NCBI GenBank assembly: GCA_921293015.1
Contig: OV121082.1
Span: forward strand, 45,404,971-45,468,970
Source: Phorcus lineatus
Lineage: Eukaryota > Mollusca > Gastropoda > Trochida > Trochidae
DNA: 64,000 nucleotides
Direction of reading: 5' to 3'
The position numbers and the translations under genes were made by a program. The notes below the pieces were generated by a model. It was not told the DNA's origin. It worked only from the letters and a program-made list of their open reading frames with translations, and did no database searches. Each line of letters opens with the position of its first letter. Position 1 is the stretch's first letter. Of this stretch, positions 21,547 to 63,553 are shown piece by piece.

Positions 21547-23391
21547 ATGTACACTGATAATATCTATGACACTGGTAAAGTACCAAATTTCCCTATTACA
21601 GCTGTGCTGGTGGTTCTCTGCTTGGTGGTCCTCTTCAACCTGCACATCCTGCGCTCAGCTGCTGACCTGACATCCTCTGACCTCCCTGGCGTCCCAAGTC
21701 CAGGCCTCATCCCAGTCCTTAATCAGCTGAATGGCGTTCCACTCCAGCGCCGACTCACCAATGTGCAGGAGAATCTTGCTTTCCTGCCCAGGTACATTCA
21801 TCTGTACGATCTGAAGCAGGTGCCCCTTACCCCAGACTTCCAGTGTGTGGAGTCTCACACCGACCCGACCTTCCCGATCTGTGTGTACACCCCGGACCAG
21901 GACAAGTTCATCTCCGGGGCTCTGCTTCACAGCGGGGTTTGGGAGCCCTACATCACTGAGGTCTTCAAGAAGGCCCTGCAGAACCACCCTAATGCTGTTG
22001 TCTTGGACGTTGGCGCCAATATAGGTATGTTGAAGAGTCATTCTGGGAGAGTCAGTAAGTGAGTTAGTGTTTAGCGCCATTTTAGCCATAAGCAACTCTA
22101 GAGCATGATATATTACCTAGGCAAACTGTACATCTACAAGAAAGTGTTTCAGAACAATGCAAATATTGTAGCCTTTGATGTTGGGGCCTATATTAGTACA
22201 TTGGGTAGGTCATATTGAATGAAGCAATAGTAAAATGTCAATAACAGTGGTTGTTAAATTACAATGGAATTGTTCTCATGAATGAACTGAACTTAGTTAC
22301 AATTTTCCTTTTAGGTAGTAGATTATTGTCTAGACAATGCACCCATTAACCAGCCATCAATTAGAAAATTAACCTAGTCTTGAAATTAACATTTTCATCA
22401 GACATAAAAGAAGACATTTATCCAAAGAAAATCCTTCCAAAATGGTATTAACTAACAAAAACATGACATAATAAATGTTTGTTGACCAGGTTACTACAGT
22501 TTCCTTGCTGCCAAGATGGGTCACATGGTGGTTGCCATAGAACCTGCGGAAGAGAACGTGTGGCGATTCCACAAGGGGGCACTACTTGGGCGACTGACGG
22601 ACACGATTTACCTGCTTCAGAACGCCATATCCAACAAACATCAAAATGTTACATTGACAACCAACCTCAACAACCAGGGGGGAATACGTGTCATGGAGGG
22701 CGGAGAGAAAGGGGAGATAATCTCCACCATTACCATGGATGACCTGTTATACCTTATGCGGCCTGCGGAGGTCATCATCAAGATTGATATTGGTATACAT
22801 ATTTTTCGACAATTTCATCTACGAACAATCTAAAAGAATTTTAGAATAGCAAAAGATATTGGCATTTACAATGCTAATAGTGTTCAAGTTACCATTGTAG
22901 TTATTTACAACACAGTATTTTGACAATAAGAAAAATGAAAATAAATCAATTAACCATGCAAGTCTGAGATAAAAGCATTCCTCTTGATTCCAGCTAGTGG
23001 AACATCTCGTTGACTGAATCAGTGCCATGTCTGACTCTCTCCCGTAGATATTTAGTTTGAATGTTTGTGGAGGTGATCTAAAAAATCAATTTCTCTTTCA
23101 GAGGGTTATGAGTGCAAAGCCATGTCAGAATCATCTCAGCTGTTCAAGCAAGTTCATGTGCCTTATATCTTCATGGAATGGCAGCAGATGTTCAAGCATC
23201 GCATGTCTGGATCTGCTTGCCCCCCGGCTTCCATGCAACGGCTGACGGACATGTTGATCCAACGAGGCTACGTGCCACACGAGGTTCGCACTGGCATCAA
23301 GATGAATCCAGATCAGAGCACAACCAACTGGAAGATTGGAGATGTCTACTGGAGACATCAAACAAAGCCGCTACTCTTCCCTCCCCTTTGA
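21547..23391 (+). CDS. FkbM-family methyltransferase, type II membrane protein (3 exons)
   Basis: Exons at 21547-22024, 22490-22792 and 23102-23391 join in frame (all GT-AG) into 356 codons. The first ATG follows directly on an acceptor-like TTGCAG, so the true start could lie further upstream. A short N-terminal tail precedes a hydrophobic segment at residues 17-37 (ITAVLVVLCLVVLFNLHIL), giving a type II, probably Golgi or ER-lumen, topology. Exon 1 ends in the S-adenosylmethionine-binding loop VVLDVGANIG; exon 2 continues YYSFLAAKMGH and VVAIEPAEEN (acidic ribose-binding position) and ends in KIDI; exon 3 starts EGYE, giving the KIDIEGYE signature of FkbM methyltransferases, then FMEW and a C-terminal WxxGDVYWR. 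Family members O-methylate sugars or small molecules; the substrate here is unknown. An AATAAA at 24487 fits the mRNA end. Confidence 0.9.
22105..22206 (+). pseudogene. decayed duplicate of the end of FkbM exon 1 inside intron 1
   Basis: The intron encodes a degenerate copy of the SAM-binding segment: KKVFQNNANIVAFDVGAYIS, compared with KKALQNHPNAVVLDVGANIG at the end of exon 1. It is also followed by a GGTAGG donor-like sequence. The key Asn of GANIG is changed to Tyr and the upstream part has lost the frame, so it is probably a dead exon duplicate. A short repeat tail (GTTAGTGTTTAGCGCCATTT, about 22062-22081) lies just before it. Confidence 0.55.
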
Positions 23392-33474: not shown

Positions 33475-35162
33475 CTTGTCCTCAGGTCTTTAGGCAAAAC
33501 TCTTGTGCTTAAGGAGATAAGAAAATTACATACCATTTCCCTATCACCTTCTCAATTTTGAAATAAATATTTCTCTCTTTTATTTGAACAAGGTCGCCAT
33601 CATTTTGATAGTTTATAATTAATAATGAATATTTATTTCTAAATATAATTTAGAAACAAACCATGAAGTGATTGAATATGTGAGCAATCTTATGACACGT
33701 AACTATGTTTTATGTACAATGTATTTCGGAAAATAGTTTAGACCTAGCGCCACCTACCGGTTGTCCGGTCATGACGACGAAAATAACAACACTTTCACTA
33801 ACATTTTAGAATATTTCGACACCGCTTAAGATATTTACTCCATTCGCCAAAATAGTTTGCACATCACCTTGATCTGAGACCTTTTAACCGGTACGTGCAT
33901 TTATTTTAGTAAGGTTTTTAATTTCCATTAATCTAATGCAACGATTTAACTGAAAGTTTTGCAAGTTTATTTTAGCCTACCAGATATTTTGAGACATAAT
34001 TTAACGAGAAAATAACTAGCCCAGACTCTGCGCTGGTGCTTTCATGTTTCATGGCACATCAGGACTGAATCATATTCTTGCAGAAGTCGCATAAAGCATG
34101 TTTTGTTTGTGTGTTCCAGGTTCATGTAATGACAGTCGAATGCGGAGTATTTGACCACTTATTAATATCCTGAATGTTTCGTAGTAAACTTGTTTAAAAT
34201 TATCATACTTCCTTGTGATTGAAAGCCAAAGCAATATGGGTGCATTTTAAATTTTTACATTTTACAATCTATTCAAACTTTTTACTACAATGTATGTACA
34301 TATAAGTGTATTGTAAAAGGGAAATATTTGTTATTATGATCCAAAGCTTTAGCTCTGTATGGGCCCATACATGGATTATTCACCGAGGTCCCAGGGCATA
34401 CGAAATTGAACATTTATGACACTGTTGTGTATCATATAATTTGTACATTCTTAAAGAATTTGATATGTTATTGTCATATATTTCATATCCATCTCGAAGG
34501 CATTAATGACTGAAATTTTCAACAATACAAACATTATCTAACATACATTTGTTGCCATCTTTAGGTCTAATTTACTTACATTACCTATTTTCAACCTTTA
34601 GCAGTAAAATAGCCAGCATTATTCTCGATTTACATGTAAACATTGAATGATTGTCGTCACATTTATAAAAATCTTAGATGCGGCAGTAATACTGAAGCAC
34701 CCAATTATCTGTTTTTATCTATGATTTAAATTATATACATTTTCATTTTCAGATTCTATTTCAAGAAAAGAAGAATGGCACTTACAAATTATCTTCAACC
34801 GAGTCCCTTGAGAGAAACACTTTTATTCTTCTTCAGTTTGGCATGGCATCAGCTACATACCCTTGCCATTGTAACATTCTCAAGCACCCTATTTATTCCT
34901 GCCAACTGATGTTCTCATACTATATTTCAGTAGGTGAATAAAGACTAATGTCTGAAGTTGTGCCATTTAGTGTAAGTGGCTACACAGATTTAGCTGCCAA
35001 TTTGTCCTCAGCTTTAATGTTCTTCTTTGAATTTGCTTGGAGAGTACGATTCCGCTTACCAAGTTTGATTACTGTCACTTTCTTAGCACTTGACATAAGA
35101 GTTAGAGTAGAAATTGAACTCCAAAATATGCCATAGATTTAAGCTGCACTGTATTTTTTCAG
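33475..35162. promoter_or_regulatory. head-to-head interval between the dehydrogenase and ankyrin-repeat genes
   Basis: The two genes diverge from here, and a CpG-containing patch at about 33730-33900 (CTAGCGCCACCTACCGGTTG, GTCATGACGACG) stands out from AT-rich surroundings. It may be a shared promoter. A donor-like GTACGT at 33891 could end a 5' untranslated exon of the ankyrin gene, whose first coding exon follows an acceptor at 35161-35162. The 62-codon frame at 34948-35136 is not supported. Confidence 0.4.
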
Positions 35163-35192
35163 GCAAAAGTTATTTTAAAACTGAATGCCAAA

Positions 35193-37862
35193 ATGAGTCG
35201 TGGGGTAAGAGATTTACGTGATCTGATCTGTGTATCAAGACTGACAGTGCGTGAAAGTGACGATGAAATAATCAGCGATGAAGAAGTTAATATCAAAGAA
35301 TTTGATGCCCTGTCTCTCAGCAGTGACAGTGGTTCTGACAGTCGACCCAGCTTGACAAGAATACAGAGTTTGGAAAATGGTGGAGTGTCACCAGATTCAG
35401 GGTGTGTTATAAATGGATCTCCATTGGAAGTATCATCAAACGTATCAAAGACACAGTCACAGAAACCCAAGAAGAAGTCTGGCAGAAAAAAACATAGGAG
35501 GAAAGAATTGGACACACTGCCAACCCGACATGAACTCCCAAAGCCAACAGCCTTACCCCCTGTCCAGGATGAGTTTGGTGCTTCTAATATCTCTTTATCT
35601 GGTAGGAGTAGTGTCAATGAACATAAACCTGGCACACAGGCAACAAAGAGCTATAATTACGATGAAATGATGTGTTACATGGATGCAGCCATCGTATCAG
35701 GCTGGCTGACACGTGCAAATGCTGCAGTGACAGAGTTGTCCAGGTTCTGTCATGTTGGCGACAACTTTGTACAGTTTTCTCACTTTTGGTTAACTGCATT
35801 CCCTGATTTCCAAAAACACGAGATATTTGAAATGGAGTATGAAATTCTCATTGACGAAATGATACTGGCATTTTCAGTTGGCAGAGATCAGAGAAAGGTT
35901 TTAAGGTCTGATATAACAAATCTGGTATCAGCATTATTCCTTGAATATCCGACCAAATTGCTCACCTCAAAAGGTAATCACTTATTCCTGGACTATCTAG
36001 ATATTTTGTCATCGGAGAGGAAGGCAGAGTACCGAAAGTTGTTGTCAAATGTTCGCTGTTCTACACGCAACAAACAGTATGCTCAGTGGTTGTTAGCAAC
36101 TCGCTCATTTGCTCTCGTCAGTTTCTGGTCTGCAATAACAAACTTTTACAGAAACTTGACTGGGCACCAGAATGTGTTGTCAGGACTTCTAATGCCGTCA
36201 AGTGTTTCAAACCAGGATCTCAACTACCAGAGACTTTACCAGGCCATCAGGTAACAGGGACTTCTTTGATTGTTAGATATATGTACAATATCAAATGAAT
36301 ATGTTGATCTGACATTTTGATTAAATGAGTACTTGAAAATGTTCTAGTGTTTAAGTTTTACAAGTTTGAATTGGATAACTATCAATTTGGCTCTTGGTCA
36401 TATGAAAAAGAAAAGAGTTCATGTGAATGCTAAACCTATTCATGTTTAGAAATGATGCTAAACCTATTCATGTTTAGAAATGATGAATAAATTAAGTTAA
36501 AGTGTTATGATGTTTTAATAAGATTAACAGTGATTAGACAAACAGAAAATATATGGAATTTCTTATGCTATATACACAATTTCTTGGTTTCTCTGACTTT
36601 AGGACTTCCATTCACATAATGTTTATGATTGGGAGGTATCTAAGAAATAACATTATTTTTTTATGTGCTATCTATTCTGCTTTCATGAACTGAAGAGCAT
36701 TGGGGTATTATTGTATTGCAACCATGTTATCGTGAAGATAATTGTCTCGCAGGTTCCTTAACAATTTTTCCATTTTATATCATCTCCCCTTATAAAACTG
36801 GAATCGGATATCCTGTCTCGGCACTAAGGCCATAATATACAGGTTTGATTGTTTTGTTCTCTTTAGACTGGGCTATGTGGACGTGGTACATTATCTGGTG
36901 GTTGGGGGACATGTGAAGGCTGACCATCTTGACTCTCATCAACGCACACTCGTCTTTACCGCTGTCATGCACAACCAGGAGAAGATACTGCACTATCTGC
37001 TTACCCGGGTAACATAAATATTTGTAGCCTTTCATGTTCATGTTCATTGAACATTTCTTTATTCATTTTAATGAAGGTCTCTTTTTTGTATGTGTATCGA
37101 GCAAGAAGTGAAGATATCAATATTGGTGTTTAACTTTTTGGGATTTTATTTTGTCTATTTATCCAGGATTTTCAATGCTAGTGACATAACCTTTAAACTC
37201 CCTCTATTTGGTATTACAGTCCCCAGCCAACCCTAACCAGGCGTCAGACACAGGCAACACACCCCTCCATGCCGCAGCCAATAGCGGCCATCTTTCTCTC
37301 GTGGCGGAACTGCTCAAATGTCCAGATGTAAACGTCAATGCTAAGAACCCACTGTGTGAAGGTGCCACACCTCTACATGTAGCTGTCATGCATGGTAATG
37401 TGCCATTTGATTTTTTATTCAATATGATATTCTTGACATTTTAGCCACTGAGCTGATTATTGCCAAGCTATTCTTGACTTACTACAGGAATTATAACTTG
37501 TAATCACAAGAATTAAGTTAATTAAAACTTGTTTAGAAACTAAATTTTAACACTATTAAGTCCATATTGTACAAAATAAAACTTCTTTAATTCTTGGAAG
37601 AATATAATTATTTCAAAATAAACTGCCGTGAACATAATATTGGTAAAAATGAAGACTAACATCTTAATTCAAGGTAGACAACTCTTGTTTTCATTATTTG
37701 ACACCCTTACATAAGTGTGTTTTATATGCAGGACACAAGAGTGTGGTGGAGGCTTTGATAGCAGCGGAGGCCAACCTTAATATGAAGATGGGAAAACTGA
37801 CAGCACAAGATATTGCACGAGACTTTGGGAATGAGGACATCCTGGAACTGCTGAATAGTTGA
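35193..37862 (+). CDS. ankyrin-repeat protein with N-terminal disordered and helical regions (4 exons)
   Basis: Exons 35163-36250 (ATG at 35193), 36867-37008, 37220-37394 and 37732-37862 join in frame with GT-AG borders to give 501 codons. Residues 1-135 are acidic/serine-rich, then lysine-rich (KPKKKSGRKKHRRKE, a possible nuclear localisation signal). Residues about 150-350 form an alpha-helix-rich region I do not recognise (from NYDEMMCYMDAAI to NQDLNYQRLYQAIR). The last three exons encode about four ankyrin repeats: GYVDVVHYLV, TAVMHNQEKILHYLL, the canonical GNTPLHAAANSGHLSLVAEL and GATPLHVAVMHGHKSVVEAL, and a final AQDIARDFGNEDILELL. Ankyrin repeats bind protein partners; the role is unknown. 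No specific orthologue is assigned. AATAAA at 38368 is a plausible mRNA end. Confidence 0.88.
36427..36482 (+). repeat. perfect 28-base tandem duplication in intron 1 of the ankyrin gene
   Basis: Two identical adjacent copies of a unit beginning ATGCTAAACCTATTCATG and ending TTTAGAAATG. Confidence 0.9.
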
Positions 37863-40068
37863 TTACTTCATGCCTTGACCCAGAAACACTTTACAAATTT
37901 GAAAAGTTTATTGATATGATATAAATTGCCATGGATACCTGTGATGTGGTTACAGTTTTCAACCAAATGTAATATCATCTGTGATATGATTACTATTGAA
38001 TACATAAACACCTATAAAAAAAGTATTTTATTCATGTTTAATTTCATTAATATACGAGTTGACAAGTTAAGTATGAGGTTTCAGTGGAAATGTTTTCTGG
38101 CATTTATTTTTTTAATGACTTGAATATTATCCATCCTGAGGTGTGTGAAAATACCCACTACAACATGAAAATTGTCATAACCCAGGTTTTCAAGCACTTT
38201 GTGGTTATTGTTATTTCTTTGTTTTAACATGTGTAAATATCTTATGCTGATAATGTAGCTTGACTACAAAATGCATTTCAATTTACATCATATGGTATCA
38301 TTGACATATTTTTAATAGAAAATATTTTATCTTTACAATTGACAATTCTAATCTCATTATTCCAAGCAATAAAAAAATCTTGATCTAACAGTTGTTTTAT
38401 CCATATTTTATATATAGGCATATGTATCAGTCATGCAGCTCTAAAACTGATTGATATGCCCCCGATACAAACTGTTTTGGTGTCTCTGATTTCTAGCTCA
38501 GAAGAAAAACAAATTTATCTTAATATCTTTATACAAGTTGTAAGTTACATTTTGGAGATTTATGACATTATTACCAAAAAGTTTAACCAAAATGGTTTTC
38601 ATAGAAATAAACATGCCAAAACAACAATGTCAAAAAAAAGTATGCTTCACAAGAACCCATCAAACTGTTTTGTTTTTTTTGTAAATTAACAATTAGTGTC
38701 ACCTATTTTAGAATTGATCTCAATTGTTGGAGTGTTCATTGAAAGAATGTTGAAAATCTATAAATGTTGACTAGACTGTTGTATAAATTACATGATTTAA
38801 TAAAGAAACTCATGAGTATGATAACATGAAATTAAATGCATGGATTTGAAAAAAACTTGGCGCTTTTATTTTTCTCTTGTACATTTGCATTATTTCTTAA
38901 TAAGATGAAATAAAGCGTTTTCATGTGATTAATCGATATAAATTCTTAAGTTTAATCCTACAGTTCTTGTCTCTACAAAATTTGACCCCTGTATCATATT
39001 TAAGCTCATCAGTCCTTCGAGGCCTGATAAAATCTGTCTGTCAGTGGCTCTATTTACATTTCCTAATTTTTACTTCTTCTCAAAAACCATTTTCTCTAGA
39101 GACTTAAATCTTGTGTTTTGTTACCTCTGCCAGTGAGGATGAATCACTTATTTTGGTTACGTGATGGCACCTTTCAGAGCCACAACAACCATGCTCTTAA
39201 AACTTATTTTGGTTTTCTATAACTTTTAAGTCCTAGAAAGCTCTGGTGATATTCACAGACTTCTTGGCTAGTTCTGATTAAAGATGGTACTGAGTGACAC
39301 CTTCCAAGGGCAACAGGGCATATATATTAAAATCCAAATTTCATTTCTATCATAAGAATAAAAAACTGAATAAAGCTGAAAGCTATTGTCAAGAACTGGA
39401 TAATAAACTTTCTTTTCCCTTTCATCCTTACAGGCCTATAAAAAGGCCTGTAAAAGGATTTCTTAGTGGGTTTTTAATGGTGAAAGGGCATTCTGACAAA
39501 TAATGACAGGATATTTATATTTACAATCTCATTAAAGCCTGTTGAGATAGAAAGTTAAAGGCTCTAGTTCTACTAGATTCTTTTTCTCTGATATTTACAT
39601 GATACCTTCAAAAACTCCCTTTAAATGGTTTGTGTACTAGTATGAAATTTCTTGTATTTCAACAAGAAATTATAATATCTTCAAGAATATAATTCCAAAG
39701 AATCCCAGTTCAACTGCATATGTTTTGAAATTATTTTGTTGTCTTATTGATGCTGAGTGGTTGAAGTTTAAGTTGTTGCTTATTATAACCCCAATCTTTT
39801 CATATATACCATCCTTATGAATAAAAGTTACTCTCAACTTGCTTGTGTTTTTGGATTGTTTTCAGGTTCTGAATTTATGCAGTCATGAAATTCCCACTAG
39901 TCCATGGTTTGACAATGATAATTATTAGAAATATGCATTATTTTGACTGAATTTGAAGGAGGTTTTTTAAATGAGGGCACCTGTTGAATAACTGAAAGGT
40001 TGTTGAAGGCATCAGAAACTCATTTACTCACTCACTCTCTCAAATAAATTTCTGAACAAGTTTAAAAA
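37863..40068 (+). other. ankyrin gene 3' untranslated region, then intergenic DNA
   Basis: AT-rich. AATAAA signals occur at 38368-38373 and again near 38797. No further exons, and no repeat recognised apart from a CTCACTCACTC tail near 40027. Confidence 0.5.
38368..38373 (+). terminator. candidate poly(A) signal of the ankyrin gene
   Basis: AATAAA about 500 bases downstream of the stop codon at 37860-37862. Confidence 0.45.
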
Positions 40069-44541: not shown

Positions 44542-44749
44542 GTAATCCTGGTGTTATCTGCATTTTCCCCTGTTCCTTCTTTCTTAACGTTAATGTTGTT
44601 GATATATTGCTTTGTGACACACGTTTTATGGCCAGTTTTGTTGTATGCAACGTCCAGACACAAGAATGCATGTTATATCGCTGTGATAACTGGAATTGAT
44701 GCACTGAAAATCGTTATCGAGTCACATCTCCAGGATGAAGGTATAGACA

Positions 44750-45725
44750 TAATGCGTGTTTTAGAGTATTTCTCGTATAGAAATAATGCGTATTTGAGAG
44801 TAGTTCTCGTATAGAAATAATGTGTATTTGAGAGTATATCTCGGATAGAAATGATGTGTACTTGAGAGTAGTTCTCGTATAGGAATAACATGTGTTTGAG
44901 AGTAGTTCTCGTATAGGAATAGTGCGTGTTTGAGAGTAGTTCTCGTATAGGAATAACATGTGTATTAGATTAGAACTCGTATTGGAATAATATGTTTTTG
45001 AGAGAAGAGCATTTGTATATGATAAATGTATGAATCAGAGTAATAATCGTATAGGAATAAAGCGTGTTTGAAAGAACTTCTCGTATATGAATAATGCGTG
45101 TTTGAGAGTAGTTCTCTAATAGGAATAATGGGTGTACGTGAGTGGTTATCGTATAGGAATAATGTGTGGTTGAGAGTAGTTCTCGTATAGAAATAATGCG
45201 TGTTTGAGAGTATTTCTCGTATAGAAATAATGCGTGTTTGAGAGTGTTTCTCGTATAGAAATAATGTGTATTTGAGAGTATTTCTCGTATAAAGAAAATG
45301 CGTGTTTGAAAGTAGTCCTCGTATAGGAATAATGCGTGTTTGAGAGTAGTTCTCGTATAGGAATGGTGTGTGTTTGAGAGTAATACTCGTATAGAAATAA
45401 TGCGTGTTTGAGAGTATTTCTCGTATAAAAATAATATGTGTTTGAGAGTAGTTCTCATATAGGAATAATGCGTGTTTGAGAGTAGTTCTCGTATAGAAAT
45501 AATGTGTATTTGAGAGTATTTCTCGTATAGAAATAATGCGTGTTTGAGAGTAGTTCTCGTATAGGAATAATATGTGTTTGAGAGTAGTTCTCATATAGGA
45601 ATAATATGCGTTTGAAAGTATCGCTCTTATATAGGTTTAGTAAGTGTGGGAGAATGGAATAATGTGTGTATGAAAGTACTTCTCGTATAGGGGTAATGTG
45701 TTTTTGAAAGAAGTTCTCGTATAGC
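44750..45725. repeat. 34-base minisatellite, about 28 units
   Basis: The unit is close to GTGTTTGAGAGTAGTTCTCG plus TATAGGAATAATGC (34 bases). GAGAGTAGTTCTC inside each unit is a small inverted repeat. Because 34 is not a multiple of three and the minus strand of the unit lacks stops in any frame, all three minus frames are open and read the same 34-residue cycle. The apparent 209- and 162-codon minus-strand proteins are therefore products of the array. Confidence 0.93.
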
Positions 45726-45819
45726 AGGACTTTCTATGAAAGCAGGACTTCGCTGAAGGCAGTTTACTAGAGCAGTTTCTCTAGGAAAGCGGTTCCTGCA
45801 TGGAGATAGATCATTTAAA

Positions 45820-46092
45820 ATACCCCTTAAACTGACACTCTGTGATTTATTGGAGTCACGTATACAAAACTTGACCAATGGGATCATCCAATCGAGAAGT
45901 GCCAACCGTTGCTAAAAAAAGAAAATTAATCGGATATGTTTATTTACAGTGGCCAGTCGAAAACAGGACAATGACGCACGTCCATTTGTCAACCGTGAGT
46001 TTGAACATTATCCTAAGCAATCAAAAAGATAGTTACGTGTCGAAAGTCTTTTTAGGTTGTATAACTAACTAGTATACATAAAAAATCAGACG
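45820..46092 (+). repeat. second copy of the MITE family at 30051
   Basis: Ordered similarity to 30063-30330: CTGTGATTTATTGGAGTCAC, ACTTGACCAATGGGATCAT, CGAGAAGTGCCAACCGTTGC, GAAAACAGGACAATGACGCA, and a TTTTTAGGTTGTATAACTAA / CTAGTATACAT end. The far terminal repeat is not evident. Confidence 0.65.
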
Positions 46093-46405
46093 TGTGATTT
46101 CGACACCAGCGCATATATATGGCTTGGTGACTGTTATATGAGAGCAAGTCAAGTATAAGCGTTTTTTGGCAATGCTTTATGTTTTATGTGAGATTTCTTT
46201 TGTTGTTTGTTCGCGGAGTAGACGTTAATGGTTTCTTCAGATTGACGTCAGATGAAGTGCCGTAAAATCTCTTCTTTGCCATTGTTTTGAAAGTCTCAAA
46301 ATGTGTCACTTCAAAATTCTTTGTATCAACAAAGAAGATCAGAGAAGAGAATGCATAATAAACCAAAATATGTATATCGAATACAGGCAAGATTTTCTGG
46401 TTAAT

Positions 46406-46504
46406 AACCACTTTATTGTGAAATTCACGACGTTTCGGAATATATGCCCACTCCTTCATTAGGTCCCACTCCAAAACGTCGTGAATTTTTACAATTAAGT
46501 AGTT
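46406..46504. repeat. inverted repeat around ACGACGTTT
   Basis: CCACTTTATTGTGAAATTCA followed by CGACGTTTCGG (46408-46438) is mirrored by CCAAAACGTCGTGAATTTTT followed by ACAATTAAGTAGTT (46471-46504), with 32 bases between. The phrase CGACGTTTCGG.ATAT..CCCACTCCTTCAT resembles repeats common in marine invertebrate genomes. It could form a long stem. Confidence 0.75.
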
Positions 46505-47131
46505 AAGTAAAATATTGTCTTCCCAATGTGTATCGCATCTAAATGTCCTTCAAAGATGTACATATCAAACTCTTCACACATTTGTGTTTTTAAAATGGCC
46601 GTAACTGCTATGATGGTTATAGTAATATAACATATAATGAAAAGCTACCTGCATACTCTTACATGAAAGTTTTTAGGTTTCAATGAATGTCACTTATGAA
46701 AGGCTTTGAACAAGTGTAAGTTTCAAAAATCACGTTTGACTAAACGCAATTAAACCGGTCGTACCGCGGTTCGTTTTACACATTCAAATTATTACTCACT
46801 GACCTTTTAAGAAACAAGTTCCTTTTCAGCAATATTCGGCACAAAATGACGCCATTGGTAACCTTATTCAGATGTTGAAACACCAACATTCTCGATGTTA
46901 CGCGATAGTGAAGCGTCAATAAAATATACAGAAGAGTCTATTGTGACTTACTGGTTTAAAATAACCAAACCTTTTATTTGTAACTATGACATTTTATGAA
47001 CAAAACAAACATTTCGAACAATTAAAACACAAAATTATCAAAAACAGAGACAATAACAACAATATTTAGTTACACGTTAGGATAAACAAATTGTCATAAA
47101 CAATTCAACTTCAAAGGGTTACAACGGTATC

Positions 47132-47495
47132 GTCCCATAAGACAGAATTCCCAAAAGACAGAAAGCTTAAATCAACACCTTTCATGGTTGACAAATGATG
47201 TAAAACATGGGCTGTACCCTTTGAAAATAATGGAACAGCCCATATAAAAGAAGACAGAATTCCCAAAAGACAGAAAAAGACACCATAGAGATATAAAGTT
47301 TGTTTATTCTTTTCACTTGATGGGTTATATTTATATACAAATATTCTATATGATATTGTGTTGTTCAGGAACATAAAGCGGGTCGGGTCAGCTCACTGAT
47401 TAATTAGGGGTGGTCAGCACTGCTAAGCTAGTTAGTGTTGTGATTAATTCTGTCTTTTGGCAATTCTGTCTTTTGGGAATTCTTTTTTATGGGAC
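47132..47495. mobile_element. 364-base TIR element with repeated CCCAAAAGACAGAA blocks
   Basis: Left end GTCCCATAAGACAGAATTCC followed by CAAAAGACAGAA; the complement of the right end reads GTCCCATAAAAAAGAATTCC followed by CAAAAGACAGAA. A third, directly oriented copy of GACAGAATTCCCAAAAGACA lies inside near 47254. No coding capacity; the 87-codon minus frame across it is an artefact. Confidence 0.75.
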
Positions 47496-49826
47496 TGAAT
47501 CGTTGCAACAGAAAACTTCCGTAGAGGCATTATCTTTGAGTACAATCCATTTAGTTATTATAGCCAATAGGTACTATTTACACACATACAGACAACGCCG
47601 TTATGGTTATTTGTTGGTTTCTTCAAGTTTATGATATACTGTAGTATCGAAATCAGCCTGCACGTGGTGAGTAAAGAACAGCCTGAATATATTGCTAAGG
47701 CATAGTTAAAACAAAAATTTGCTTGTACCTTATCCCTATTTCCAATCCTTATTACGATCATATTGCGAAATAAAAATATCTTGAAACCAGAAACAAAAAA
47801 GTTTTCATATTACTTGATATATTTCATATAAACAATCTTACATTTCGAATTCTTTCGGTAGTCAAAAAACATTGCACAACAAATAAGATATTTCTTTTAT
47901 TGTTTACCTTCACACCAAAAAAAACTTTGGAAACTCATATTGTTTAACAGTGTCTCCCCACAATAGTTAGTTACTTATTCATTCTGACTCTGTAACAAAC
48001 GTTAGATTTCGCAGGTTCTCAAGGAGCCAAAGCACTTCTTTTGGTGAATTTTATTTATCAAAATGTTCAGCAAAAAATATTAGTTTATGCCAAACGATTA
48101 TCTTCAGAGGGTCAAACATATCATTATTCAACCCGATTATCCACAGTCGAAAAAAAATCAAGTATCAAGCGAAAACGGATGGCGAACATTTTAGTGTGAA
48201 CACATTTCAATTATTTGAGACAGGTTGATGGATTCGAGAAGCTTAGAGGGTGGTTAGACGACTAATTGATACTCCAATCATTTAAGATAAAAATATATGT
48301 TTCTCTTTATCGACATGAATTAACAAAATGGTTTACCAAGTTCACGTTCTGTTATTAATAAAAATCACAAAAACAGATCAGTTTATCAGACTTAAAAACC
48401 TATATTTTCGTACTCAGGTAGGATTTAATTTTGAAGAATTTTAAATAGAAGCCGATCTCGAATTAGATCTGAAATAGATGCCACAGTAGATAGTGGTCTG
48501 TCACGCCACAGGCGTCTATTCGAGGAAATACTGAACGTCTCGTAAGAAATTACTACGTAGCGCAAAGGAGAATGCACTCCAGTCGTCTCCACTGTTTCTC
48601 TTACAGTTCAGGTGCTCAGATTGAGAGAACGTTCAAACGACAAACTGTGACTGCAATTTTTCTGTTTTCTGTATTTCAAGCCTCGTTGCTTACATGATAC
48701 AGAGTTTACAACTTATAAGCTCAAGGTCAAAACTCTTAACCCAAATCGACGACAGGTTAGATGAAATGTAAGTTGTATATGTTTTCGCCAAGATCACTAG
48801 CGTTTTTCCTAAAATTGAGGTCGGGGATCAAATAGCTATATAAATAATGTCACGGATTTGTTCAGCCACAAAAAGTATAAACCGTTCCTTACAACAATTG
48901 CTGCTTACACAACTTATGAAACAGTTCACTGATAAAGCTTCTTCCTCGAAACATTTAAAAGCGGTTAAAATGCAATTGAAATAAGTGTCCTTACATTCTG
49001 TTCAAATAAATATCGCCATGCCTGTTGATATAACCTGACGGAGTTCTGTGCAATTAGAGAAACGAGTGCGACGCACAGGGGAAGGAACTTGGTAACGCAA
49101 ACTGACTGGTGCTCATTTGGCAACACGTCGCTAATTGCGCAAATTTGATTGCAGCAAATCAGGTTTCACTTTATTCTCGCTCGTAAACTGTCTTATTGTA
49201 ACAGATAAGAAGAAAATTATGGGGAAAGTTCTGTCTTGGGGGGGGGATGGGTTTGATCACGTTGATTAAATCATCAGAAGCCTCTTTAAAGTTTGTCGAT
49301 GCACCTGACATGTGGCTAATGCGAAAGTATACAAAACAATAAAACTGTTCCTTGACTTTAAGGGTAAGAGGCGATCTTAATACAGAAAACACTATAGTTA
49401 ATACACGTTACCTTGTTTGAATCGCCTTAAAACTGGTGTCTAAATATAGCATCATGTGAAACTCGGTTTCGCATACCGTGATGGTTATATTGGTATGGAG
49501 GGCGTATTTTTATAAGAACAGCCCGATTGATCTGAATGGTCTGTGCTGGTATATATCAAAGAATATGCCATGAGGTGCATCAAAACATTGAGGTCACATC
49601 ACCACGACACGCTTTAAAGAGCTTACTGTTTCTATGTAAACACTTTACCCACTGTATAGCAAGTTGATATACATGTATGCCGTTTAAAGGCAAATTACAC
49701 GTGAAACATGAAAACACATGTTCTAGCTGTAAAATAATTATCTCAAACAACATTTGGAGCACTGACAAGAATGCCAGTGGTCTGCACTGAGGTCTTCTCT
49801 ATAGGTTACCTCCCTTGCTATATCAT
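47496..49826. other. intergenic DNA, including the probable 3' end of the secreted-peptide gene
   Basis: No exon recognised. TTTATT at 49171-49176 gives a minus-strand AATAAA about 650 bases past the peptide gene's stop and is one possible mRNA end. A run of nine G lies near 49240. Confidence 0.4.
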
Positions 49827-52800
49827 CTAATGACGAGGTCTGTGTATGTTCCATCTCCGCTGGTGATTCCGGTGACGTCTGCCCCTCCTGCCGTTGCATT
49901 GAGGGCTGAAAGGGTCCAAGTTACCGCCAGCTTGACAAGCATACATCCCGGTCGGACCGCCCAGAGTGATACAGCGCCCCGCTACCTCTTCAACCTTCGC
50001 ATAAAAAAAACGAAAACAATTTTTCTTTCTTTTTCTAAAAGTATACTTAAATAGCCGCCAAAAATCAGTTATTAGCTCTTTGGCTCACCGTGCTTCGTAA
50101 AGTTTGAAGTGCAATCCTTATAGTTATGACCTTGAAAATGAACTAAAGGTCACCAAAATAATACAGTGTTAAATCGTGACACAAACGTGAGCACTAGTAA
50201 CGATCCAGAAAGATATTCTGAAAATATGGGCCTCCTACGACTTATCATTTCTGAGAACTAGTCTTGCACGCCGATACAGAATTTAACCGCTTGGTAAAAC
50301 GTACCACATCACAAAATTTAAGCTTTTGGGGTGAAGCAGTACTGGAGGAAAACAATAAATAAACAAAAGGTTTACGGGCGCTGAACGACGGGTCATACAA
50401 TAAGATCATTTGACCTCATCAGTGAAAAAATAATTTTATTTCGATCCATAACATATGAATTTCAGCACTTATTTTAAAAATTCGTGTGACAAGTGACAAA
50501 ATGAGAACACTTGGTTCTGTAGTTCATCAGGTTTCACACAATATATGACCTAGAATGAACAGTCGCACCATTTGTAAGGTCAGAGGGTCACGAAAAAAAA
50601 AAGTAAAAGAAAAAAAAAAGCTTGAACATAATAATTCTCTCCATTGTCCCTTTAATGCACAATGTTGAGCTCTACCCGCCATATTCTACTGGATAAGACA
50701 GTGAAATTAGGTTTTAAGGGCGTGAACTAGTTACCATTTTTTAGGGGCAACAGGGTCACCAAATTTAAAATTTAAAATTTAAAATTCCTATTGCCTAGGG
50801 CGTCAAGATTTCAACTAAGAATCTTGACACAAGTTTTCAAGTTTCAAGACCTTTTACTTCTTAAGAAGACGAAAATAGCTTGTTGGCCGAAGATTACAAA
50901 ATACAATTATAATCCCCATTGCCAAAGGACTTGTTACACAAAAGTTCAGCTTTCTATGCCTTTTCCTTTTGGGGAAGAAGATGAAAATGGGTTTTTAGAG
51001 CGTGACCCGTGTACGGAGCTATAGTCACCAAATTTACAAATGATCATCCTAAAAGTCTGGACACAAGATATGAAGAAGACGACAACTGATTTTTAAGATG
51101 TGACCGATTTGGCCCTTTAAGAAGCCATAGGTTCACCAAATTTACAATTTAGAATCCCCACTTTTCCAAGTAGACGATAGTTTTTTAGGCGTGGCATGTC
51201 ACATTATCCACAATTCATAATCCCCACTTGCCAAGGTACAACTATACGAGAATAAATCTCTCTAGAGACAGGACCTAACGGTGACAACAGTTGACGTACT
51301 CACTTTCCGTATGTACACGTGGCAATTCACGTTCTCAGCAGCAGGTGGGGTTGGTGTCAAGTGGCTCATCTCGTCAACTGCTCTATCCTGTGTGTAGGCA
51401 GCATGCATAGTTAATTGGTATGCTTGTGGTCACCACTTAAGATTGGATTTTACATCATATTGCATCATATTGGATAACTGCCTATTAACATCTGCAAGAC
51501 TACCATTGTCAGTGTTGAGAAAAGCTAAAAAGGTAAGCGTTTGCATCTTAAGTGCTGCAAGTTAAACCTTGTAACATAGCATAAGACTTAGCGGAAGAAT
51601 AGATCACTACTATTACAGAGATACAAGCGTACATCAATTACAAACAAACGGAAACAACAGAACACCACAGATAATAACACACATTAAAGTTAGTAGATGA
51701 AATCAAAAGAACAGTCAGAATGGAATACTACAGATATTAGCTTACATCGATTGACAAATACATACATACATCAAGAATGGAATATTACAGATATCAGCTT
51801 AAATACATAAAAAAAACATAGATGCAGAATCGAACATTAGTCAGTTGCTTACATCTAAAAAAACACTTACAGCCAGAATAAAATATTACAGATAATCGTT
51901 CAAAACTAAAACAAAGGGGCACAATGGGATATTAGTCAGTAGCTTACGTCAATAGGACGCTGACAGCAAGAATGGAATATAGCAGATAATTAGTTTAAAC
52001 CGAAGGGAAACTTACAGCCATAATGTTACATTACAGTCACTACCTTGCATATAAAGAACATTTGCAGCCAGAATGGAGTATTAAAGTAAATAGCTTTCAT
52101 CGCAGAAGAATTACAACAAGAACGGAATATTACAGCCCGTAGCTTACGTTAAAAGGACGCTGACAGAAAAGAATATTACAGTCAGTAGCTTACGCCAAAA
52201 GAACACTTAGAAAATAGAATATTTCAGCCGGTGGCGCTTATCAAAGAAGCTCAGTATCTATATCTGACTCATATTTGTCTTTTGTTAAACATCGTTGACT
52301 ATTTGATTTCATTTGTTTTTAAAATTAAGGAATAAAGATAACAATAGACTTAGAATTTATTTGTGTTCCAAATGAAAAAAAAAACATTCATAAAAAGGCT
52401 ACAAATTATTTTGAAAACCTTTTTTAAAACTATGCCACTGAATTAAAAAAAAACACCTTACAGCCAAATCGACACCCGATTATTCATGAGCAGTTTGAGA
52501 ATGATGGTAAAAGGTTTCTTTTTAGAAACATGGGTGGAAAAGTGTTTCGACTATTCATCAAAGTTCTGTAGCTATGGAACGCTCATATTTCACAGAGATA
52601 CCTTAGTACTAAGGGCACCCTTAAACAATTGTTATAACACTGAGGTACGATCATCTTAGCTCTTTTTTTAAAAGGACAGTCCTATCTGGGTACTTTTTGT
52701 GGACACGAATTCCAAGGGGACATTCACGTTTATACATGAAAGTTATTAGTTCATGACTATAACATAACCAAGTTTGAACATGTTACTGAGTTAAAAAAGC

Positions 52801-54308
52801 TTTGTTTCATTTAGATAAATGCAGCTAAATAAAGAGAGCGCACACTCGGTAAAATAAAACTGTAATCAGAAGTGATTTTTTTTAGCTCATATAGTGTCAT
52901 TCTCTGCTTAGCTTGGTGAGACCATCCAGGCAATAGTTATTCATCATCCATGCTTTTTAAGTTGAATGTATTCACTGAAAGAATGAATCACCTATAACGA
53001 GTTTTCCTTACTAAGTACAAAGTGATATTATTTCTAGGAATGCACTTTTTCTTGACTAAAAGGCACTATATTACGCTTTTTCGGTTCAAATTTGCTTTTT
53101 CAAGGGATATGAGGGCATAGGCACTAATTTTAGTTCCTACCGATGCAATGAAAGGCTTATCATTTACAACTGACCTGTTATCAATAATGACAAACTTTAA
53201 GATTGCCGAAGATATAAAAAAAAAATATAGTCAGCTGTGTACACAATTGTAAAAATATGGACAGTTAAAAACGGCATAGGTAGTAATGTGTGTACCTTTT
53301 CAATTTACCTTAACTCTGAACAGAGAATAAAGGATGAATCAAAGGTATTTAAAGTAATCTTCTAATATAGCCAATTTTAAAAAAAATAGTAAAGTGATTG
53401 TTATTGGATTAAGATAGCGGCTGCCGTTTCCGCTCTTCTGGTTGCAAGCAAAATTTGAATATTTCCAATAACGTAGTTCATGCGGATTTAATGCAACGTT
53501 GAATTTGATACTTTCGTTTTTTTAAATCAACGTTTTAACCTGAAAACGTACATATTTGTTAAACAACTTACAAGGCAGATTACCTGAGTGCGGATCGTAA
53601 GTAATTTTGAGAGATATGCGTGATCTGTGCATTCGTTGTATATACGAAATATTGGCGTGCACTGTTGCCTTTGAAATACTTTCTGTATACAATATAGTAA
53701 ACGCTTCTTTACACTTTGTTCATTTGTTATATGCTACGAATTATATATAACTTGAAATGAATTTAGTGATACCCAAATTTTTCAACTGTGTTGAAAGTGT
53801 TTTTATTTGACTCTTTATCTTAACACGTACATTATAGCTAGACCCATGTTAAGAAAATTGTTGGGATGATTAAATAATCGACTGGCGCCATACATAAAAG
53901 TATTTTGATAGATATGATATTGTATCGTTGCAAATAGAGTGATGTTTAAGCGTTAGTGGGATAGATATGATGTCAGTGAATGCATTCATGTATGCATTGT
54001 TAAAAAGTTTCCTTTAATAAGAGTTTAATCGTTAATTGATCTTCAGTTAATTTGTTCAATCAAACAATGTCATAGGAGATACATAAATTTAAGACTTTTT
54101 TTATTCTTTCATTTCTGGCTCAGATTTGGAGCAAAGAACGTTACCTTTTCATGTTCAAAGACATCATTGTTAAACAATTTAACCTCGAATAATTGTTGAC
54201 AAATTGATAAATCTCACATCTTACCTGAGCGTCCACGTATGGACAGGTGTTCCAGAGGTTAAGGACAGCAAACAGGGCGAGGCACGCTGCAATACGTTCA
54301 ACCAACAT
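49827..54308 (-). CDS. secreted cysteine-containing propeptide with amidation/dibasic signature (3 exons)
   Basis: Minus-strand exons 54225-54317 (ATG at 54308), 51304-51387 and 49827-49994 join in phase 0 with GT-AG borders: acceptors TACCTGCAG, TACACACAG and TTTTTATGCGAAG, donors CAGGTAAG and AAAGTGAGT. They give 111 residues. Residues 1-27 form a signal peptide (basic start MLVER, core IAACLALFAVL, likely cleavage after YVDA). Exon 2 is proline-rich (LTPTPPAAENVNCHVYIRK). Exon 3 adds GRCITLGG, GMYACQAGGN and LDPFSPQCNGRRGRR, then a tail of Arg/His/Asn to RPRH. After signal removal four cysteines remain, enough for two disulfides. Gly-Arg-Arg after PQCN is a classical convertase/amidation site, typical of peptide hormones. 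Spacing of the first three cysteines vaguely recalls bursicon/glycoprotein-hormone cystine knots, but the second half of that fold is absent. No family is recognised. Introns hold degenerate tandem repeats. Confidence 0.7.
50730..51240. repeat. degenerate tandem-like repeats in intron 2 of the secreted-peptide gene
   Basis: Four to five diverged units share TCACCAAATTTACAA, AATCCCCATTGCCAAGG and ACACAAG..GAAGACGA phrases (near 50755, 50910, 51026, 51132 and 51208). An AAATTTAAAATTTAAAATTT run starts at 50759. Period is roughly 100-150 bases and uneven. Confidence 0.5.
51600..52245. repeat. degenerate minisatellite, unit about 45-57 bases, about 12 units
   Basis: Units are built on GCCAGAATGGAATATTACAG followed by TCAGTAGCTTACGTCAAAAG and GACGCTGACA. 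The GGAATATTACAG core recurs near 51721, 51778, 51884, 51975, 52074, 52124, 52169 and 52213, among others. It lies in intron 1 of the secreted-peptide gene. No open frame spans it. Confidence 0.75.
52834..52859 (+). repeat. 26-base exact inverted partner of 43332-43357
   Basis: Contains GAGAGCGCACACTCGGTAAA. See the entry at 43332. Confidence 0.8.
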
Positions 54309-54317
54309 GCTGACTCC

Positions 54318-57300
54318 CTGCAGGTATAACATAACAAGCGTTAGGTACACACACCAGGTAGCCAGGTAGGTATCTTGCACATGTATGTCGGTGCACCAGA
54401 TTGCATCGGCTTGCACCTCCCGTCAAAACAATTTACGCTCCATTTTGTTGACAAATGGTCCAATCATGAATCTCAAACCAAGTGAAGATTAAAACCAAAC
54501 AAAATCTCTCCGGTTTCGAGATTAATCATTGAAACATCACCTGTTTTGTTATTCTTGGAACAAGAAAATTGACTTTGGTAAAGAGACAAATAACCTGATG
54601 GAAGATGTTTCTTTTAAATTTGCAGAAAAACAAACTTTTTAGCGTCTTGTTGTGTGCATCCAGCGCTTGACTGCACGAATTTATCGTAATGCAAGACGGC
54701 GAGTCTGTTATAGGCCCTCTCTCAGACAAGAGCGTTGTTTAATGATGCTGGGATTGACGCAGATGACCAATGGAAATGAACTGCGCCAATTAGATATGAA
54801 ATGGGGCGATACTTTTTATTGTAACACAAATGGATTCACGTAGAGTTCACGTACCCTATTTCGGCGGTTACAGGGATTTCTAAGCGAGGGGGTTCACCTT
54901 TTGGAAATCGAGGAAGGACTGCTTTATTCTTCTAATTCATGTATGAAATTATCAATTCTAAAGGTGAGTGACCCAAAGAACATCCTCCACGATCCGCCGT
55001 TGCACTGTTTCCTATCTCCAAGTTAGCTTTTTACACCGTATCTTCACAGTCATCTTGTTGTCAACATGGTCACATGTTCCATGGCATGGATTCAAGAAAA
55101 CAAAATACATGCTTATAGAACCCCACTTAGGAACCAGGCGTCTCCGCCCCTCATGTTTTACATCCCGCACAGTATTGTTTTAGCGATAAGTTTCCCCTGT
55201 ATATACAGACACTACGCGATATGTCTCACACGGGATGAGACATCACCAAATGTTAATATCTTAGAGACTGTCCGTACTGAAAAAATATTGATAGCATTTA
55301 ATCTTTTTTAAGAAGAATCATATTTTTGATAAGACGTTGGTTGAAATTACGTTTGTATAACCATGCAAGTGCGCAAAAGATGAAATCCAAAACTTGCTCT
55401 GACAAGTAACAATTATCTGTTGTAAAACGGTAATGTTTATCCCAAACTAAGGCACGTATATCATATACTTAACAAAACTTTGCTATCTTACAACCACTTA
55501 CATTAATACTTATGTATTTAGGATGATATGTAATATCTAATGAAAGAAATGTTATGTTTCCTTGAGTAAATCCTAAAATTCTAATTTTCAATGTTTAAAT
55601 TCAATTTATTTTTCCGACGGCAATAACTATTAAAACGAATTCTTCCAAATATTTAGGTATACACTTTTGGTGTGGCCCACAATTAATTTATTTCTCTTTT
55701 TTAGTTGACAGAACGTTCTTGCATTAGGGATATTTATCAACATTCATTAATGTGTATTAAATACAAATAAATATGACACTTTTCCATTAATTTCACAAGT
55801 AAGAGTCTTATGCACGTGACTTTGAAAATTCGTTGAATTATCTTAAATGGCAAATGTACTTACGTGAATGATAAAAAAGAAATGCTCTTCTGTCAAACGA
55901 AAACATTGATGCAAAGTTTTTGATAAAAATTGATAATTTTTGTTTTCTTTTTGCATATCACTGAGGAAATTGTCAGCTAACTACAGGGTTTAAATGTTGC
56001 AAAGGCTTTTTGATAAAAGCATAATGAGTTCTAAAGCAAACACTCAAATGCTTGTATAACAACGCCTTAGCCATAAACAAAGATATCTCGAAAGATTTGT
56101 TCACGTACGAGTATATATGTATTTCATATGTAAGTTAAAGCTAAGCGTGTATACAATAAGGTCGGTTACCTGGTTACCCTTGGCCCTGACTGGTAACATT
56201 TGGATTTTTTCTTTTAATTCTGACAAAATCATAATTTTGATTAGGGAACTCTTCAGAGTTAGTTCATACATGAACCTAGAAACAAAACGAATTACATTAC
56301 ATATTCAACAATTTTAATAGTGCAACTTCTCTTAGAATGGAATCTTCCCATTTGTATTAAGACATCGCATGAAACAACTCGTGTATACAGACTTGTGATC
56401 ACAGATTTCTTGCCAATGAATAAAAAACTAAGTATGTCATTGCACACTCGCAATGCATCCCTTTATAAGCGTCCCATTTGATTTTATCGTCCTATTTAGT
56501 GAAGTAATGCCAATGACCGACGTTTAATCTGTTTGTGGATTACGGATGGAGCGGTGAAGAACCTGATGCTTGCCTTTCTGACCAATTCATGAATAAATCA
56601 TGAAAAATAATAACTAGTTGCATTAACAAACAGATCTATTTGTAGTTTTCTGCGCCAATTCAATATTTAACCACGTTTTTCTGACGATGTTTGTGTTGTA
56701 CGAGGCATCGAGACTACTCGAGATTCGGAAGGAATCTGTCGTAAAGTGTGTATATATGAATTGCTGATTGAGAGAACGTGATTGGTTTAGTAAGGTAGGA
56801 CATTTACAAGGAACGCAGAGAGAACACATACGACATACGCCCTATGAACAGATAATATGACTTATGTTACTACAGGCTTTCGTTTTCCAGAGACATAAAT
56901 ATCGAATTTCTATCTTAGAACTTGACAACATGATTTGAATTTAATATTATAAAGGTAAAGTTTTCCTCATAAAATCCAGATATAACTTAAAAACCAGATA
57001 GATTTGATAGAAAAAATATGTATATCGGTAAACAGGAACATTTTACATTTGTAAATTGATTAAGTTAAGAGAAAGGAATCCATAAAGATACTAAAGATAC
57101 AAAATTATTTACCTATTAATTTATGGTATATAATTGTGAGGTATTTAGATACGAGCCAGGAGGTCCGTATCTTTTATGTATTTGCCTATAGCATGGAATA
57201 TCTGTGGTTTGTTGTGTGGGTTGATGATATGTTGTTTTTTCAACAAAATAAGAACTGGGCTAGATGTTTGTTAATTTGTCCAATAAACACCTTAAATTAG

Positions 57301-60517: not shown

Positions 60518-60616
60518 AAATAGCGACCAAACACTCGGCGTTAGCTGTGATATCGCCCTCTCGCTACCGCTCGCGGGCGATATCACAGCTAACGCCTCGC
60601 GCTTAGGTCGCTATTT
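60518..60616. repeat. long hairpin, 41-42-base arms, 16-base loop
   Basis: AAATAGCGACC... GGCGTTAGCTGTGATATCGC (60518-60558) pairs with GGGCGATATCACAGCTAACG ... GGTCGCTATTT (60575-60616), with mismatches confined to about 8 central bases. The loop is TCTCGCTACCGCTCGC. It ends six bases before the first ATG of the LINE frame. Confidence 0.9.
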
Positions 60617-60780
60617 CACCCATGACTGACATTGAACAGTACAGGCAGGCGGTGGGTATTTTTCCTGTAAAACTACATTCCAAATTTGCAGTTCGATTTA
60701 TGAAAAACATCAAAAGTTTTAAGTTTTTGTGTCTCTACAATTCTCAAGTATCGATAATAATTTCTCTCCTCCTATGTTGC

Positions 60781-60807
60781 GGTGATATTCACCTAAATCC
60801 AGGACCG
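60781..60807 (+). other. 2A-like (ribosome-skipping type) motif in the LINE N-terminus
   Basis: GDIHLNPGP at residues 54-62 of the first LINE frame follows SIIISLLLCC. It matches the D-(V/I)-E-x-N-P-G-P pattern except His for Glu. 2A-like sequences are known at the N-termini of some CR1/L2-type LINEs. Whether this variant skips is unknown. Confidence 0.6.
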
Positions 60808-62910
60808 AAATATTTCCAAGACCTTAAAATAATAAATTTAAAAGTACGCAGCTTGAGAGATAAAATTGACTTACTTCAAGCGGAATTTCGATCATACGAT
60901 GTCATATGCCTAACGGAAACTTGGTTACACGCAGACATTCCCAACGTTGATGTAGCACTACCCGGATATAACCTACCATTCAGGAAAGATAGACAAACAC
61001 GCGGCGGCGGTGTTGCGGTCTATGTTAAATGGAATTTACAAGTGAAACGTATAGACAATCTTGAATCTCCCGGGCTAGAGGCAGTTTGGGTAACGATTAA
61101 ATGTAAAAACCGATCATACCTTATAGGTTCCATCTACCGAGCAGATAAAAGCGCCGCTTACTAGGATCTGATTGAGGAATCAATCGGTAACACAATCGAC
61201 CTGAACATGTATACTATCGTAGTCGGCGATTTCAACATAGACGTCCTTCGGGAAAATCGTAACAAAACAGATTACATTCAATTCAATTAATGTATGATCT
61301 CAAACAGATTATATCAGAACCAACAAGAATTACACACAATTCAAGTACCCTGATAGATTTGATATTTGTATCAAATAGCAAATTTGTAAATCATTCGGGG
61401 GTTCTTGACCCTATATGCAGTGACCACTGTCCGACATATGTGACAATTAAAGAACTAGTTCCCTCCAATAGCAACTATAAGAGGAAAGTTTATAACTATT
61501 CGTTAGTTGATACAGAAAGTATGAACAGAAGTATAAATGATATTGACGGCGATCATTTATTTTCTTCCAAAAATGTGGATAAAGTAGCAACCGATTTAAC
61601 ATCTGCAATTAAGAAAATCTGTGATAGCCATATACCAAATAAGATTGTCACTATCAGACCTTCAGATCCGCTTTGGATGACAAGCCAAATACGATCTTTG
61701 ATCCGAAAACGAAATCGTTTTCATAAAATTGCGAAGAAAACTAATCATCCAAGGAAGTGGGCTAATTTCAGATCAGCCAGAAATAAAGTTACTTCTGCTA
61801 TCAGAACTGCCAAACAAGTACTCGTTACTAAGATTGAGGATTTTGTAAACAACTCGCTTGGAACCAAAACTTGGTGGCGCCTGACTAAAGCGTTCATAAA
61901 ATCGCGTAACGATGACGGTCAATTTCGATTAATTATTTTTAATGATACAGTCTATAATGACCCTGAAGATATCGCAAACGTTTTCAATAATTTTTTTGTC
62001 GACTATTGAAGACCCAGATCGAGATCTACCAGAAATACAATTACCATGTATGTCAACTTTAACTAACATAACTCTAACCCGAAATGACGTCAGCGATATC
62101 TTATTGTCATTAGACACATCAAAAGCAACCGGCCCAGACGGAATAGGAAATAAAGTACTCAGGTATACCGCAAACAGTCTTACATCATTACTCACGAAAG
62201 TTTTCAACTTATCGCTTAGCCAATCAATCTTTCCATGTTCGTGGAAAGAAGCATCTGTTATAACTCTTCATAAAAAAGATAGCGTACATGAATGCTCAAA
62301 CTACCGTCCTGTCGCACTCACATCTTGCTTATCAAAAGTTTTTGAAGATGTGTATTCTGATATTGTGTAAATCAGATAAGAAAGCTGTACTAGTTGGAGT
62401 ACCTCAAGGCTCAGTTCTTGGATACATCGTATACATCAATGGTATTGTATGCGATATCGACAGTAACATTCGTCTCTTTGCGGATGACACATCGTTATAC
62501 GTGATTATTGAAGATCCACTTATTGCTGTGAATAATCTTAACAAAATTTCACAATGGGCCCGTGAATGGCAAGTCACATTTAACCCAATCAAAACAGAAT
62601 CTATCCAGTTCTCGCGTAAAGCAAAACCGTCTGTAAAACCGAACCTACTCCATGGACGGAACGATTATAAAAGAAGTCAAAAGTCATAAACATTTAGGAA
62701 TAACACTCCAAAGCGACTGTGCATGGAAAAATCACATTGATGATATTGTACGAAAGGTTCGCTCTATGATCAGTTGTCTCAGGAATTTCAAATACCGATT
62801 ACCACGTAAAACCTTGGATACAATGTACAAATCGTATATTTTACCGATATTTGACTATTGTTCGCACATTTGGGATAATTGCAGTCGAACTGCCAATTAC
62901 GCCAAATCGT

Positions 62911-63165
62911 TTTTCATCATCATCATCATGAAAAGACTTCTATAGCGCCATTTCCAGACTAAGAATTCCGCTCAGTAGCGCTCCTTGAACAACTCAAGAA
63001 TGAAAAGTCACACACTGTAAGTGTTCTGGAATAGGTATGTCTTAAGTTGACATTTGAACATCTTAGGGTTGTTGATTTTCCTCAACTCAAGTGGGAGCTG
63101 ATTCCAGAGTTGATACCAGATACAATAAATTAATGGAATGCTTTACCTCGTTCCAAAGGATCGTG
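62911..63165 (+). mobile_element. insertion inside the LINE, dispersed repeat
   Basis: After TANYAKS the LINE frame is interrupted by an ATC run and GACTTCTATAGCGCCATTTC. Then come CACACTGTAAGTGTTCTGGA, ATAGGTATGTCTTAAGTTGA and GTGGGAGCTGATTCCAGAGT, wording I associate with a common non-coding marine-invertebrate repeat. LINE coding resumes near FKHLITKSKNKIYFN. Borders are approximate and no clear duplication was seen. Confidence 0.5.
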
Positions 63166-63553
63166 CACATATTCAGAATTCAAACATCTAATCACTAAAA
63201 GTAAAAATAAAATTTATTTCAACCTTGACTACGGCACCCGATTTTGTCAAATTATTCACTGTCAACTCAGACTCGGTTGTAGTAATCTAAACTCGGATAA
63301 ATATAAAAGACACATATTGGACAGTCCATGCTGCTCTTGTGGATATCAGACAGAAAACGCCCTACATTACTTTTTAACTTGCGGTAATTATACCAACCTA
63401 AGACAAAATATGTACTTTTATAAAACTGGTCATACCCTGGATACAATTCTGAACGGGAACAAAGAACTTAGCCACTTTGAAAATCAGAAAATAATTGATT
63501 CAGTTCACGATTTTATCACCAAAACTCAACGATTCAAATCTAACCCAAAATAA

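Follow-up and report, generated by a model that had tools for sequence, protein, structure and literature searches.

In a 64,000-nucleotide stretch of the genome of Phorcus lineatus, a vetigastropod of the family Trochidae (GenBank assembly GCA_921293015.1, contig OV121082.1, positions 45,404,971 to 45,468,970; hereafter the window), three minus-strand exons that join in phase very probably constitute a real gene, and a second, inverted copy of this gene lies nearby on the same chromosome. Taking the encoded protein together with the differences between the two copies, we give an even chance to the reading that the gene specifies a small, secreted, cationic peptide, disulfide-bonded and fast-changing, with defence, mucus or reproduction as its most likely field of action.

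Results

The gene model comprises three coding exons of 84, 84 and 168 nt on the minus strand, separated by two phase 0 introns and encoding 111 codons followed by TAG (Table 1). We ranked the potential splice sites of the window using splice matrices. Among the 7160 GT sites on both strands, the donors CAG/GTAAGA and AAA/GTGAGT rank 15 and 70, and the acceptors of the introns rank 122 and 216 among 6854 AG sites. The GC content of the exons is 0.51–0.58 while that of the window is 0.30–0.40 per 4-kb block, and GC peaks coincide with the exons. A preliminary description of this locus had given 54317 as its end coordinate, which is the first base past an acceptor ranking 43 of 6854; the nearest in-frame stop upstream of the ATG is 39 codons away. 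Because this strong acceptor ends right before 54317, an upstream exon, probably a non-coding one, is likely.

Three short exons joined in phase are easily found by chance in 64 kb, and we therefore wrote a small gene finder that combines codon scores trained on two other genes of the window, the splice matrices and a signal-peptide score, and that returns the best three-exon models for secreted proteins. The gene finder recovered exactly the three-exon, in-phase model of the preliminary description, at identical coordinates and with a score of 88.2. This score is the second highest among non-overlapping minus-strand models, the highest (111.6) being the antisense shadow of a gene at 21.5–23.4 kb; in the raw list, which includes overlapping variants of other models, the model ranks 103 of 1234. 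On the plus strand, the two top models score 143.7 and 84.1, and these scores are partly circular because the models contain pieces of the training genes. A score of at least 88.2 was reached by none of 300 fifth-order Markov windows (maximum 71.4) and by none of 1200 shuffles restricted to 47–57.5 kb (400 shuffles at each of three block sizes, with a maximum of 85.2); the best score in the reversed window was 49.1.

The protein begins with an N-terminal signal peptide (score 18.2 on a home-made scale) for which the cut is predicted before residue 28, i.e. after Ala27. It continues with an acidic, proline-containing spacer followed by four cysteines in the arrangement C50-x13-C64-x11-C76-x12-C89. 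Nine Arg and four His are present among the last 22 residues, and the mature part has a pI of 9.9. The sequence features thus agree with the earlier description of a small, secreted peptide that has four cysteines and a basic tail. Dibasic sites are present at R55-K56 and in RRGRR (residues 92–96), in both copies of the gene. The predicted structure of the part encoded by exon 3, modelled from two sequences with a predicted local distance difference test score (pLDDT) of 66.6, has three short strands and one helix.

To find relatives within the genome, we searched all 957,807,699 bases in 74 contigs with the whole protein and scored all candidates at E <= 10. There were exactly six matches, corresponding to the three exons, twice, in the same order and orientation. 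The second copy is located on the chromosome common to both (C2) and is inverted relative to the first, with the first exons 34 kb apart. It keeps GT and AG at every junction, the upstream acceptor, the stop codon and all four cysteines; donor 2 is preceded by G instead of A, and the pyrimidine run ahead of acceptor 2 is slightly altered. When the 293 kb surrounding the window were compared with themselves, using blocks of at least 500 columns, an inverted duplication emerged at C2:45449741-45508314 which, as assembled, has arms of ~26–27 kb each, separated by ~5.7 kb, and main blocks of 82.5–96.9% identity. Intron 2 is longer in copy 2 and includes an extra stretch, C2:45497214-45501075, without counterpart in copy 1; by eye, its long open frames have the look of a tyrosine-recombinase retroelement.

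The differences between the copies are unevenly distributed over the coding sequence. Exon 1 is identical (0/84), exon 2 has 5 differences in 84 nt, all within its last 24 nt, and exon 3 has 13 in 168; in other words, the first 144 coding nt (48 codons) are free of differences and all 18 are found in the remaining 192. The 30 bases preceding the ATG are also identical. Twelve residues differ, ten of these within residues 49–91, and the cysteines are unchanged. In the codons of residues 49–91, 16 of 129 nt differ, compared with 109 of 2575 nearby non-coding columns (p=2e-4, in a test chosen post hoc). Between the copies, intron 1 has 190 mismatches in 2148 aligned columns and intron 2 has 66 in 1252. 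The 336 exonic columns are free of indels (2.7 expected; P(0)=0.066), with gaps opening 39 times over 4828 non-coding columns, which argues slightly for coding. The preliminary description had also considered the peptide as probably amidated on an Asn; this did not hold up, as Asn-Gly-Arg-Arg in copy 1 corresponds to Gly-Ala-Arg-Arg in copy 2, the sole other copy. The Gly inside RRGRR is retained in both copies but differs from the proposed amidation site.

Searches of Pfam and NCBIfam gave no credible relative of the protein, and neither did a PDB sequence search; the predicted structure of exon 3 had no credible fold match in PDB. Similarly, no relative was detected in prokaryote contigs using exon 3 as query or in viral contigs using exon 1 patterns. 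As had been noted before, the protein matches no recognised family in these libraries, and the gene is known here from the single genome of P. lineatus; as the searches included no other gastropod genome, the lack of relatives tells little about how widely the gene occurs.

Table 1 Parts of the gene, its second copy and the duplicated surroundings. Numbers are window positions except where C2 precedes them.
Feature	Position	Strand	Description
Exon 1, coding part	54308-54225	minus	ATG, 28 codons, MLVERIAACLALFAVLNLWNTCPYVDAQ; signal peptide, predicted cut after Ala27
Exon 2	51387-51304	minus	28 codons, DRAVDEMSHLTPTPPAAENVNCHVYIRK; acidic spacer with Pro, and the domain's first cysteine
Exon 3	49994-49827	minus	55 codons + TAG; three cysteines, basic tail RRGRRHRNHQRRWNIHRPRH
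Intron 1	51388-54224	minus	Phase 0, GTAAGA...CACACAG
Intron 2	49995-51303	minus	Phase 0, GTGAGT...GCGAAG
Nine bases upstream of ATG	54309-54317	minus	Separate the strong 3' splice site (cag/GGAGTCAGC) from the ATG
Copy 2, three exons	C2:45493291-45493374, 45495998-45496081, 45501333-45501500	plus	Found in the whole-genome search
Part of left arm holding the gene	44771-57124		Separate aligned blocks versus right arm, 82.5-96.5% identity
Left-arm blocks	44771-46639, 47344-47992, 47983-48503, 48789-50245, 50285-51269, 51267-52249, 52489-53777, 54181-57124

Several other features were observed in the window. A tandem array with a 34-bp unit (25.8 copies) is present at 44741-45620; related arrays occur in the opposite arm of the duplication and near C2:45573 kb. 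A long interspersed nuclear element (LINE)-like element on the plus strand at 60607-63553 contains an endonuclease (Pfam PF03372) and, by eye, reverse-transcriptase-like pieces, and the GDIHLNPGP motif in its first open reading frame resembles a 2A peptide; no block of 500 columns aligns the part of the arm that carries this element (57.1–63.8 kb) with the other arm. At 35118-37863 (plus strand), an open reading frame with a FAM220 domain (PF15487, E 3.2e-63) is followed by exons that look ankyrin-like by eye. The multi-exon gene at 21499-23391 (plus strand), three pieces of which had no Pfam match at E <= 0.01, resembles an FkbM-type methyltransferase, and a stretch at 29315-29474 (minus strand) with a VNNAG motif resembles a short-chain dehydrogenase exon.

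Discussion

In our working model, the transcript would contain the three spliced coding exons, probably preceded by an upstream non-coding exon. The signal peptide would be cleaved after Ala27, exposing Gln28, which could turn into pyroglutamate, and C50, C64, C76 and C89 would form two disulfides. A convertase may cut in RRGRR and separate a 15-residue Arg/His-rich tail from the cysteine domain; alternatively, the tail would be left uncut and remain as a binding handle. The cationic product would work extracellularly, with defence, mucus and reproduction as the likeliest settings, and in such roles cysteine loops would change quickly while the precursor stays fixed. In the assembled sequence the gene is duplicated in inverted orientation, and the copies differ mainly in the cysteine domain, probably through divergence after the duplication. 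A bolder version, which we regard as doubtful, is that the gene represents a new family of disulfide peptides confined to topshells, in which the loops diversify after duplication while signal, spacer and tail remain nearly fixed, with a product that serves in signalling or as a gamete or defence factor, under positive selection and at its first duplication.

A number of observations weigh against a functional, fast-changing peptide and have to be set beside this model. Codon usage in exon 3 scores 15.4 bits in frame versus 22.4 and 18.3 bits in the other two frames, and up to 26.4 bits on the opposite strand (stops were skipped in the non-model frames). With 14 nonsynonymous differences in 252.5 sites and four synonymous differences in 80.5 sites, the nonsynonymous (dN) and synonymous (dS) divergences are 0.058 and 0.051, which is like non-coding DNA; for exons 2 and 3 together, they are 0.078 and 0.070, from few changes. 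Because synonymous differences in exons 2 and 3 are raised too (4/59.8 sites), the cluster of differences may reflect the local mutation rate. Moreover, exons 2 and 3 taken whole, compared with intron 2 plus the 3' flank, yield only p=0.056 (18/252 versus 90/2077), 1020 of 4280 overlapping non-coding windows diverged as much as exon 3, and exon 1 sits in a stretch that is near-identical anyway (5/392 differences upstream). In 20,000 trials with 18 random substitutions, the frame stayed open in 56%; therefore, the intactness of copy 2 supports coding only weakly. Finally, whole-window shuffles that keep local composition, and that retain the GC-rich blocks of other genes, scored at least 88.2 in 31 of 300 cases (maximum 114.3). 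The dN/dS ratio near 1, the frequent survival of an open frame and these shuffles would be in keeping with three chance exons, or a dead gene, drifting neutrally in a duplicated stretch. We consider it unlikely that there is no living gene here, given that neither the region-restricted shuffles nor the Markov windows matched the score, that the donors are strong, that GC peaks at the exons and that exonic indels are lacking.

It is somewhat less improbable, yet still not what we would expect, that the protein gives rise to a peptide hormone or neuropeptide, a four-cysteine peptide freed at the dibasic R55-K56 and RRGRR to act on a receptor. The signal peptide, the spacer, the dibasic sites and the cysteines are arranged broadly as in neuropeptide precursors of molluscs, and both cleavage sites are retained in both copies. 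Moreover, several mollusc-only cysteine-rich secreted precursors, e.g. Cragi-CCCGS and Cragi-clionin, are described in oyster ganglia (PMC8398477), and eight uncharacterised precursors, MAP1-8, in abalone (PMC6523705). On the other hand, the Gly required for amidation is not retained in copy 2, no Pfam family matches, and, compared by description, no precursor in section 2.7 of PMC8398477 plainly shares the layout. No purifying selection is seen between the copies, including in the cysteine domain, which weakens the hormone explanation because a receptor-bound hormone should show purifying selection on this domain. Overall, the pattern of change favours an effector over a conserved amidated hormone, not strongly.

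We also considered a shrunken CBM14 domain (peritrophin-A type, Pfam PF01607) that has lost two of six cysteines and would be secreted to bind chitin or mucin, and we regard this as highly improbable. By eye, CQAGGNLDPFSPQCN can be matched to the C4-x12-C5 part of CBM14, with a single C-x12-C stretch and AG and DP in register, and an unforced profile alignment pairs the identical columns; the genome is also rich in CBM14, with 150 scored matches among 488 candidates. Using a CBM14 profile built here from seven sequences, copy 1 scored 0.2 bits, and 2663 of 5000 cysteine-fixed shuffles of copy 1 were as good; copy 2 scored 2.5 bits, and 720 of those 5000 copy 1 shuffles did as well. The hhalign probability was 0.3%, Leu takes the place of the usual aromatic residue, two cysteines are missing, the 150 scored genome matches do not include exon 3 and there is no PDB fold match; we therefore rejected the CBM14-like appearance of this segment. 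As a separate observation, many of the CBM14 matches are clustered on C15 and C2.

If transcribed, the gene would be of a type that annotation easily misses, with three short exons over 4.5 kb and no family, and the clean two-copy pair would lend itself to studying the origin and change of orphan secreted peptides. The locus also illustrates a gene model that was proposed from a raw reading of the sequence and afterwards recovered by a scan.

Cystine-knot glycoprotein hormones (GPA2, GPB5 and bursicon) have a C-x-G-x-C signature and at least six knot cysteines. The loose resemblance to the first half of such hormones, to which the preliminary description had pointed, lies in C-x13-C-x11-C and does not extend further: C-x-G-x-C is absent from the protein, only four cysteines follow the signal peptide and there is no Pfam match. 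By comparison, GPA2, GPB5 and bursicon have 10, 9 and 11 cysteines after the signal, and scallop GPA2 and GPB5 have 143 and 139 residues versus 111 here (PMC5996578). Like our peptide, oyster Cragi-CCCGS is a secreted cysteine-rich peptide of unknown function, described as without related sequence in other species; unlike our peptide, it has 8 cysteines in 42 residues (PMC8398477). The picture of mollusc hormones is left unchanged by this gene alone. Compared with the fast-evolving disulfide peptides of secretion that function in defence, venom and reproduction, there are only two copies here and dN does not clearly exceed dS; what the gene has in common with this class is duplication, an identical signal and spacer, and a cysteine domain that has changed around kept cysteines.

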